Shown here one piece after another: positions 1,571 through 53,943 of a stretch of 64,000 nt of DNA. This DNA comes from Bacillus shivajii (GTDB lineage Bacteria > Bacillota > Bacilli > Bacillales > Salisediminibacteriaceae), in the NCBI RefSeq assembly GCF_020519665.1, contig NZ_CP084703.1, forward strand, positions 62,001 through 126,000, read 5' to 3'. Below the pieces are notes generated by a model. That model saw only the letters and a list, made by a program, of their open reading frames with translations. It was not told where the DNA came from and made no database searches. A program made the translations under genes and the position numbers. The stretch's first letter is position 1, and each line of letters starts with the position of its first letter.

Positions 1571-1831
1571 GGAACTCTTTAAAATAAGGTTTTGTTCTAT
1601 TTTTAGTTGATAAAAGAAATGAAATGTTGGTGTAGATAGGTTGGGACGAGCGATAGGCGGCAACTCTAGCACAAGCACCAACTTCACGAGTAAGCTACGC
1701 GCTACCTCGACGCAGCTACAAAGAAGACACCGTGAATGAGAACGAAGTGTTGCATGAACGGATGTCGCACATGTGCCTAGAGGCGAAAGTGTCCGCCGAT
1801 AGCGGAGATACATAATCAACAATAACAGAGC
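1571..1831 (+). repeat. Dispersed intergenic repeat, copy A
   Basis: About 260 bp in the metS-tatD gap with higher GC than its surroundings. It shares with the copies at 44765-45047 and 45143-45486 the core CAAAGAAGACACCGTGAA (1719-1736), then a block with GTCGCACATGTGCCTAGAGG, and a right end AATCAACAATAACAGAGC (1814-1831). The left end (GGAACTCTTTAAA) is a degenerate form of GGCTCTGTTAAA seen in copies C and D. An open frame on the minus strand (1532-1822) has no recognisable protein and is probably a by-product. No clear target duplication is left. Confidence 0.75.
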
Positions 1832-19368: not shown

Positions 19369-19485
19369 GGCTCTGTTAAAGTTTAGTGTTGTTAATAGTA
19401 ATAAGATGCTGATTTGTTTTTTTATATCGAGCGATAGAGGTGACTCCTGCGCAGCTTCGCGCTTGCTCGTCGCAGGTAAAGGGTG
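19369..19485 (+). repeat. Dispersed intergenic repeat, copy C (left part only)
   Basis: Starts GGCTCTGTTAAAGTTTAGTG (19369-19388), matching the terminal sequence of copy D, then GAGCGATAGAGGTGACT and a hairpin CCTGCG...CGCAGG that resembles the 32-bp tandem unit of copy B. The core with GAAGACACCG and the right terminus are missing, so this is a truncated copy. Confidence 0.65.
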
Positions 19486-43114: not shown

Positions 43115-44617
<1,503 letters not shown>

Positions 44618-44655: not shown

Positions 44656-44764
44656 AAAAGATAAAAAGGATAAATAACCGTCGAGGAAGCTGATTATATT
44701 TTTATGTTTGAGCGGTTATATCAGTAGTAAGCATTGGACAGCCTCAATGAATGCTTTTATTTAT

Positions 44765-45047
44765 AGCTCTGTTAAAGCTTATTGTTGATTTTGTGACTCG
44801 CTTTTGGTGAACGCTTGCACCTATAGGCACAAGTGCGACATCCATTCTAGCTTCACTACGTTCGCTTTCACGGTGTCTTCTTTGCCGCGGGCACGGCCTC
44901 AACTTCGCAAAACTCACATGGCTTCGTTTTGGGTGATTTTCCGCTCGTGCTGTTCTCGCTGGCGTCGTCACCTTTGCTCATCAAAAATTATTGTATTTTA
45001 ATATTTATCTCCACTTTTTAATATCAACACTCAATTTTAACAGAGCC
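44765..45047 (-). mobile_element. MITE-like dispersed repeat, copy D (intact ends)
   Basis: 283 bp with terminal inverted repeats: AGCTCTGTTAAAGC at the left and GCCTCTGTT-type GGCTCTGTTAAAAT read inward from the right; 22 of the outer 28 positions match. Both sides are flanked by the 8-bp direct repeat TTATTTAT (44757-44764 and 45048-45055), the mark of insertion. On the minus strand it holds the family core CAAAGAAGACACCGTGAA (44867-44884). It encodes no recognisable protein, so it would need a transposase in trans. The parent element is not known; 8-bp duplications are typical of the IS6 and ISL3 families, among others. Confidence 0.8.
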
Positions 45048-45142
45048 TTATTTATAACGTTCATTTTTTGTGCGTATGCTTCTTCAATATTTTTAAAGAC
45101 AAAGGGAAGCGAAGTATATAGGTAAATAGAGATTTAGTTAAT

Positions 45143-45486
45143 GGCTCTTTTTTTAAAAAAATTGCTTCTGCGGTTACTCGTCGCAAGTGAAGAGTGCTCC
45201 TGCGGTTACTCGTCGCAAGTGAAGAGTGCTCCTGCGGTTACTCGTCGCAAGTGAAGAGTGCTCCTGCGGTTACTCGTCGCAAGTGAAGAGTGCTCCTGCG
45301 GTTACTCGTCGAAAGTAAAGAGTGTTGCTTTTTATGAATAAAAAAGATTTGACTGAATAGGTTGCGACACCCACAGCAAAGAAGACACCGTGAATGCAAG
45401 CCAAGCATGAAACGGAAGTCACAATTGTGCATAGAGGTGTAAGCTGTCCGTCGTTAGCGAACACAACTAAAAAACAACAGTGTTTA
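45143..45486 (+). repeat. Dispersed repeat, copy B, with internal tandem repeats
   Basis: Begins GGCTCTTTTTTTAAA, a degenerate left terminus; contains the five 32-bp tandem units (45164-45323), the family core CAAAGAAGACACCGTGAA (45377-45394) and the block with CAATTGTGCATAGAGGTG, and fades out near CAACAGTGTTTAC. Same orientation as copy A. Ends and boundaries are approximate. Confidence 0.7.
45164..45323 (+). repeat. Five tandem copies of a 32-bp repeat
   Basis: Five head-to-tail units beginning GCTCCTGCGGTTACTCGTCG and ending CAAGTGAAGAGT, with no spacer between them. Units 2-4 are identical; the first has one change and the last two changes. Each unit contains a short TGCG...CGCA inverted repeat. 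A single related unit is seen in copy C (about 19447-19485), so the array arose by local amplification. Confidence 0.95.
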
Positions 45487-45747: not shown

Positions 45748-45776
45748 TTGACACCATATCGGTGAAATGATATGAT
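45748..45776 (+). promoter_or_regulatory. rrn promoter P1
   Basis: TTGACA (45748-45753), 17 bases, TATGAT (45771-45776): near-consensus SigA promoter about 210 bases before the 16S gene. Confidence 0.88.
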
Positions 45777-45827: not shown

Positions 45828-45856
45828 TTGACAATGACATCGCAAGGTGTTATGAT
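45828..45856 (+). promoter_or_regulatory. rrn promoter P2
   Basis: TTGACA (45828-45833), 17 bases, TATGAT (45851-45856), 80 bases after P1. The two promoters have similar surroundings (ATGTTGACA; ATCAAGTCG / TTCAAGTCG after the -10), suggesting a tandem duplication, as in rrn operons of B. subtilis. Confidence 0.88.
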
Positions 45857-45986: not shown

Positions 45987-47544
<1,558 letters not shown>

Positions 47545-53787: not shown

Positions 53788-53879
53788 AAGGAGCTATTAG
53801 CTCATTACTTTATCGATCGTTTGCGCTTTTTGTTTAGTTTTGAGAGGTTATTTTTTATCTCTCAAGACGTAAGGATTTT

Positions 53880-53943
53880 AAGGAACTTCGGCTAAAGACA
53901 TCGCGTCCTGCGATAACGCCGAAGCTAGCACATCCTGTGCGTC
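53880..53943 (+). repeat. Palindrome cluster in the 16S-23S spacer of operon 2
   Basis: CTTCGGC (53886-53892) pairs with GCCGAAG (53918-53924); within it ATCGC-GTCCT-GCGAT (53900-53914) forms a second stem; directly after lies GCACA-TCC-TGTGC (53928-53940). None of this occurs in the spacer of operon 1, which instead holds two tRNA genes. Confidence 0.8.

Follow-up and report, generated by a model that had tools for sequence, protein, structure and literature searches.

A probable non-autonomous IS1595-family element with a folded core between lysS and an rRNA operon of Bacillus shivajii

The interval between lysS and the promoters of a ribosomal RNA operon in Bacillus shivajii holds a short unit with matching ends, which raised the question of what this unit is, by what transposase it could have been moved and what it carries. 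The window, i.e. the whole stretch of DNA that was analysed, comprised 64,000 nucleotides (NCBI RefSeq assembly GCF_020519665.1, contig NZ_CP084703.1, positions 62,001 to 126,000), and the coordinates listed below refer to it. A sequence-only reading had described the unit as a non-coding, non-autonomous mobile element with ends matching at 22 of 28 positions and flanked by an 8-bp direct repeat.

Both the ends and the repeat were found again, and the open frames crossing positions 44765-45047 were short and spurious only. The terminal inverted repeats (TIRs) matched at 22 of the 28 outer positions, being identical at positions 2-12 and mismatched (A/G) at the outermost base, and the motif TGTTGAT recurred farther inside the ends of the 283-bp element. 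The target-site duplication (TSD) was a perfect 8 bp. The following features were recorded in the window:

1693..1793, + strand, partial copy of the core (64.6 bits)
19369..19396, + strand, solo TIR-like end GGCTCTGTTAAAGTTTAGTGTTGTTAAT, without a partner and without a core
44757..44764, no strand, left 8-bp target-site duplication TTATTTAT
44765..45047, no strand, whole non-autonomous element (MITE), 283 bp, without a transposase gene
44765..44792, + strand, left terminal inverted repeat AGCTCTGTTAAAGCTTATTGTTGATTTT, the same motif as in IS1595-family elements
44810..44960, - strand, structured core module in its putative RNA-like sense (model R1, 149.4 bits)
45020..45047, - strand, right terminal inverted repeat, inward reading GGCTCTGTTAAAATTGAGTGTTGATATT
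45048..45055, no strand, right 8-bp target-site duplication TTATTTAT
45350..45447, + strand, partial copy of the core, inverted relative to the core of the window element, no TIRs found (45.1 bits)

The element was located between the lysS stop codon at 44617 and the rrn promoters at 45748-45776 and 45828-45856, with the 16S gene at 45988. This lysS was 89% identical to that of Litchfieldia alkalitelluris, which places the host near Litchfieldia. A promoter scan returned 9 sites, including the two rrn promoters, where shuffled sequences gave 3.6; one weak site (9/12) was situated at 45027-45000 on the minus strand, in the TIR, reading toward the core. Upstream of the rrn promoters, at 45158-45329, a 32-bp unit (CTCCTGCGGTTACTCGTCGCAAGTGAAGAGTG) was repeated in tandem about five times, and the lysS-rrn interval of a genome of the same genus (G001) contained tandem repeats of about 110 bp having GCTCCTGCGGTTACTCGTCGCA in common with it. 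The Bacillaceae-1 RNA (RF01690) was located at 53876-53941, between the 16S and 23S genes of the second rrn operon.

Three further occurrences of the core within the window had been claimed. Two of these were recovered as partial cores, at 1693-1793 and 45350-45447, while the third, at 19369, was a solo TIR without a core. The absence of copies outside the window had been named as an argument against a mobile element; many were found in the host genome of the window (G000, 4.44 Mb). A blastn search with the element returned 53 matches, and the end pattern GGCTNTGTTAAANNTNNNTGTTGAT, at up to 3 mismatches, matched 91 places, compared with 3 when the pattern was reversed, thus the ends were not a product of chance. 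Pairing of the ends yielded about 29 elements of 115-504 bp. Perfect 8-bp TSDs were observed in 16 of 24 TIR-only pairs, and in 20 of 24 when one mismatch was tolerated, whereas permuted partners (20,000 shuffles) gave means of 0.75 and 1.2, respectively, with a maximum of 6 in each case. The duplicated sites were 93% A+T. At least 14 of the 29 TIR elements carried the core, a lower bound from the part of the elements that was scanned with R1. No match was obtained in the plasmid and phage collections searched, and the viral contigs gave a single solo end in a prophage-like contig.

An empty site was recovered for a sister copy of 394 bp (G000:4249366-4249759), inserted where a yojF-like gene has its stop codon and directly before a bshB2-like gene; we assign both gene names from a reading of the sequence. 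The copy had AAGAAATA on both sides, and its joined flanks matched G001 without interruption, the junction there being CCTTTTAAGAAATAAGT with one AAGAAATA, an exact empty site. Element ends were present at this junction in none of the nine relatives examined. Occupation of the lysS-16S interval in all relatives had also been named as an argument against mobility, and the ends were absent from this interval in all relatives searched. A base-exact empty allele with one TTATTTAT was not seen at the window locus because the intergenic DNA of the relatives was too diverged. Hence, the expectation of an empty site was borne out for the sister copy, and the window locus showed only the absence of ends in relatives. 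The TIRs, the 8-bp TSDs, the roughly 29 copies and the empty site of the sister copy agree with one another, and the MITE reading is well supported.

A family that would move such ends was found in other Bacillales. An element of 1603 bp in genome G172 had the same ends as the window family (GGCTGTGTTAAATTTTAATGTTGATTTT and GGCTCTGTTAAAGGTAAATGTTGATATT) and the TSD TAAAAAAT, and its transposase was assigned to IS1595 (NF033547, E 8.8e-64; PF12762 and PF12760). The features of this family include an 8-bp TSD and zinc-ribbon and DDE domains (PMC8101967). Relatives of the G172 transposase were detected by a protein search in 78 of 199 Bacillales genomes. The ends matched, with mismatches adding up to 0-5 for the two together, and the 8-bp TSD was perfect at 16 of 30 transposase loci (L224, L225, L227, L231, L232, L235-L238, L240, L242-L246 and L248). 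The end motif was present in 106 of the 199 genomes, and the reversed control in 0. The window family thus resembles IS1595 (NF033547; PF12762 and PF12760) in its GGCTNTGTTAAA...TGTTGAT ends and AT-rich 8-bp TSDs. It differs from the IS1595 elements, which are about 1.1-2.2 kb long and carry a transposase, in its length of 115-504 bp, the lack of a transposase gene and an interior that is not IS-derived. IS1595 provides the name for the dispersed repeat that could not be placed earlier. The G172 element also contained a small, passenger-like TPR-repeat ORF downstream of the transposase (L204:645-1052, minus strand).

The same genome had been predicted to contain an autonomous IS that has GGCTCTGTTAAA ends and duplicates 8 bp of its target. 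Such elements exist in other Bacillales as members of IS1595, but none was found in the host genome, where neither a PF12762 match nor, at E <= 1e-10, any relative of P0001 was obtained; the copies there therefore appear to be orphans. No IS1595 transposase was found in G001 either, and three further genomes (G004, G008 and G038) had many ends, yet no IS1595 match. An autonomous partner in the same genome is usual for a MITE and is not strictly required.

The PF01609 (IS4-family) elements of the host genome, represented by five full-frame copies and one weaker match, were ruled out as a partner by their different ends, CACTAGTGTTGCAT. One of them (L169:2949-4358; G000:C1, about 1718948-1720357) had CACTAGTGTTGCAT ends with ACAGGAATC on both sides, and a truncated MITE copy directly adjoined it.

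Two other origins of the frame were weighed against these data. The unit could be an intergenic sequence that is inherited vertically and has a regulatory or structural role, e.g. as an rrn leader or a boundary element, its repeat ends being coincidental. The location between lysS and the rrn promoters would suit such a role, as would the conserved, structured core, but the ends are missing between lysS and 16S in the relatives searched, about 29 copies with 8-bp TSDs occupy unrelated loci, and an exact empty site was recovered for the sister copy; the empty site together with the TSD statistics refutes this account, to which we assign next to no probability. It was also considered that the frame was moved by another transposase family producing 8-bp duplications, such as ISL3, IS6 or IS256. 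The lack of a detected IS1595 gene in the host genome and the end-rich genomes G004, G008 and G038 speak for this; it is made very improbable by the complete IS1595 elements of other Bacillales, whose ends are the same and whose TSDs are 8 bp long, and by the different ends of the PF01609 elements of the host.

The interior of the element was analysed with covariance model R1, the E-values of which are rough. On the minus strand, the highly conserved core of about 150 bp was predicted to form GCGGG/CCCGC, an inner stem and a variable terminal hairpin, followed by GGCAAAG/CTTGTGCC and GACACCGT/ACGGaTGTC. Two apical helices, with GA/GA internal loops between them, complete the predicted fold. 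In a structure-blind alignment of 18 sequences, two-sided changes were observed in 21 of 39 pairs against 12.6 expected, a value as high being reached in 0 of 500 shuffles, and sliding of the partners destroyed the pairing. When 82 copies from many genera were aligned by fitting to the model, two-sided changes were found in 33 of 39 pairs (493 cells). A recount without three pairs that the variable hairpin had caused to misfit gave 93 G-U against 38 A-C cells, a figure that is partly model-dependent, and a recount of the three best-aligned apical helices gave 24 against 4. The hairpin arms differed wholesale between subfamilies. The core was co-directional with the neighbouring gene by 15 to 5 in the host genome and by 26 to 12 in the pooled set (p ~0.03), a weak bias; in the window element it was oriented opposite to lysS and rrn. 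None of the Rfam covariance models matched the core at its gathering score. We concluded that the core is predicted to fold as a branched, covarying structure, which is better explained as a minus-strand RNA than as a DNA cruciform, since G-U exceeds A-C on that strand, although this excess is not decisive.

The earlier account had missed that the core is a separate module. R1 detected the core in 98 of the 199 Bacillales genomes, distributed over 52 of 96 genera, including genomes without any IS1595-type end (G139, G190, G126 and G118). In G190, it was enclosed in short elements with GAGTCTGGGACAAAA TIR pairs, and an IS1182 transposase (NF033551, E 3.6e-117) was encoded near ends of this kind in that genome. 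These GAGTCTGGGACAAAA-ended elements hold the same structured core as the window element but have a different TIR and no consistent 8-bp duplication in the pairs listed, so the IS1182-type frame is not that of the window element. Core copies at four loci of the host genome (L004, L009, L013 and L030) belonged to a third frame, marked by direct repeats resembling CTACCCTGAAAATAA together with an internal inverted repeat, TTTGACAGCTTRTGTG. The core model gave no match at the 30 IS1595-transposase loci, which, together with the occurrence in IS1182-type frames, indicates that the interior is not left-over IS sequence. The core forms a structured module of its own and occurs independently of IS1595-type ends.

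Bacterial MITEs are usually seen as internally deleted IS elements of which only the ends are conserved. A simple internal-deletion derivative was rejected here, the core being absent from the 30 IS1595 loci and present in IS1182-type frames. About half of the Bacillales genomes examined retain the interior fold, and the frames of two IS families have it in common, which raises the question of the benefit that a folded cargo brings to a non-autonomous transposon or to its host.

Taken together, the ends, TSDs, copy number, sister empty site, same-ended IS1595 elements, core covariation and second frame make it highly probable that the unit is a non-autonomous IS1595-family MITE with a captured folded core of about 150 bp, shared with IS1182-type frames in another genus. 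It was proposed that an IS1595-type transposase would recognise the ends of about 28 bp and mobilise the element in trans, and that insertion into the AT-rich TTATTTAT would create the 8-bp duplication. The transposase gene may since have been lost from the lineage or may never have been resident, leaving orphan copies. The core would have been captured as a module between the ends, its RNA sense probably being the minus strand.

The nature of the core itself can be stated less firmly. We tentatively proposed, at somewhat under even confidence, that it represents a structured RNA family of Bacillales not described before, a portable cargo of unrelated MITE frames (IS1595-type, IS1182-type in G190 and at least one more), in which selection may act to keep the folded module and not the ends. 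Alternatively, the core may be a DNA-level inverted repeat (cruciform) without RNA function, maintained by gene conversion or recombination between copies. The wholesale differences of the hairpin arms and the numerous, recombinogenic copies, with inverted core pairs in G126, fit this reading, but it does not predict the one-strand preference for GU over AC in the three apical helices, the GA/GA internal loops repeated on the minus strand or the weak co-directional bias with genes; we regard it as doubtful, though still a serious candidate. It is rather unlikely that the core was the original mobile element and that nested insertions placed it, by chance recombination, between different transposon ends. 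Its presence in the IS1595-type and IS1182-type frames and in one or more others (CTACCCTGAAAATAA direct repeats, G000) would be accounted for, but no ends or TSDs of its own were noticed immediately around the core on unsystematic inspection, and its spacing between the ends is similar within frame subfamilies.

An exact-string literature search with the ends and the core returned nothing relevant, and no description of the dispersed repeat was found in the literature searched. Among known systems, bcr1 of the Bacillus cereus group, Bhal-1 and Bhal-2 are likewise dispersed intergenic stem-loop repeats of Bacillus-type genomes, but in the available part of their description they are set apart by the absence of a reported IS1595 link or order-wide shared core (PMC2267715). 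The TIMEs, miniature elements giving rise to mosaic non-autonomous transposons, are similar in being short, with ends able to frame unrelated DNA; as far as the part of the source consulted extends, they are Tn3-derived, whereas here IS1595-type and IS1182-type frames have one folded cargo in common (PMC4133298).

Two other arrangements of the core were recorded. In G126, cores were arranged in inverted pairs with a spacing of about 280 bp (L355, L356, L357, L358, L360, L361 and L362). At two loci of the host genome (L020 and L021), a part of the core was present as tandem duplications of about 67 bp (CACCTCTAGGCACAAG...TCTTCTTTG), with up to four in a row.
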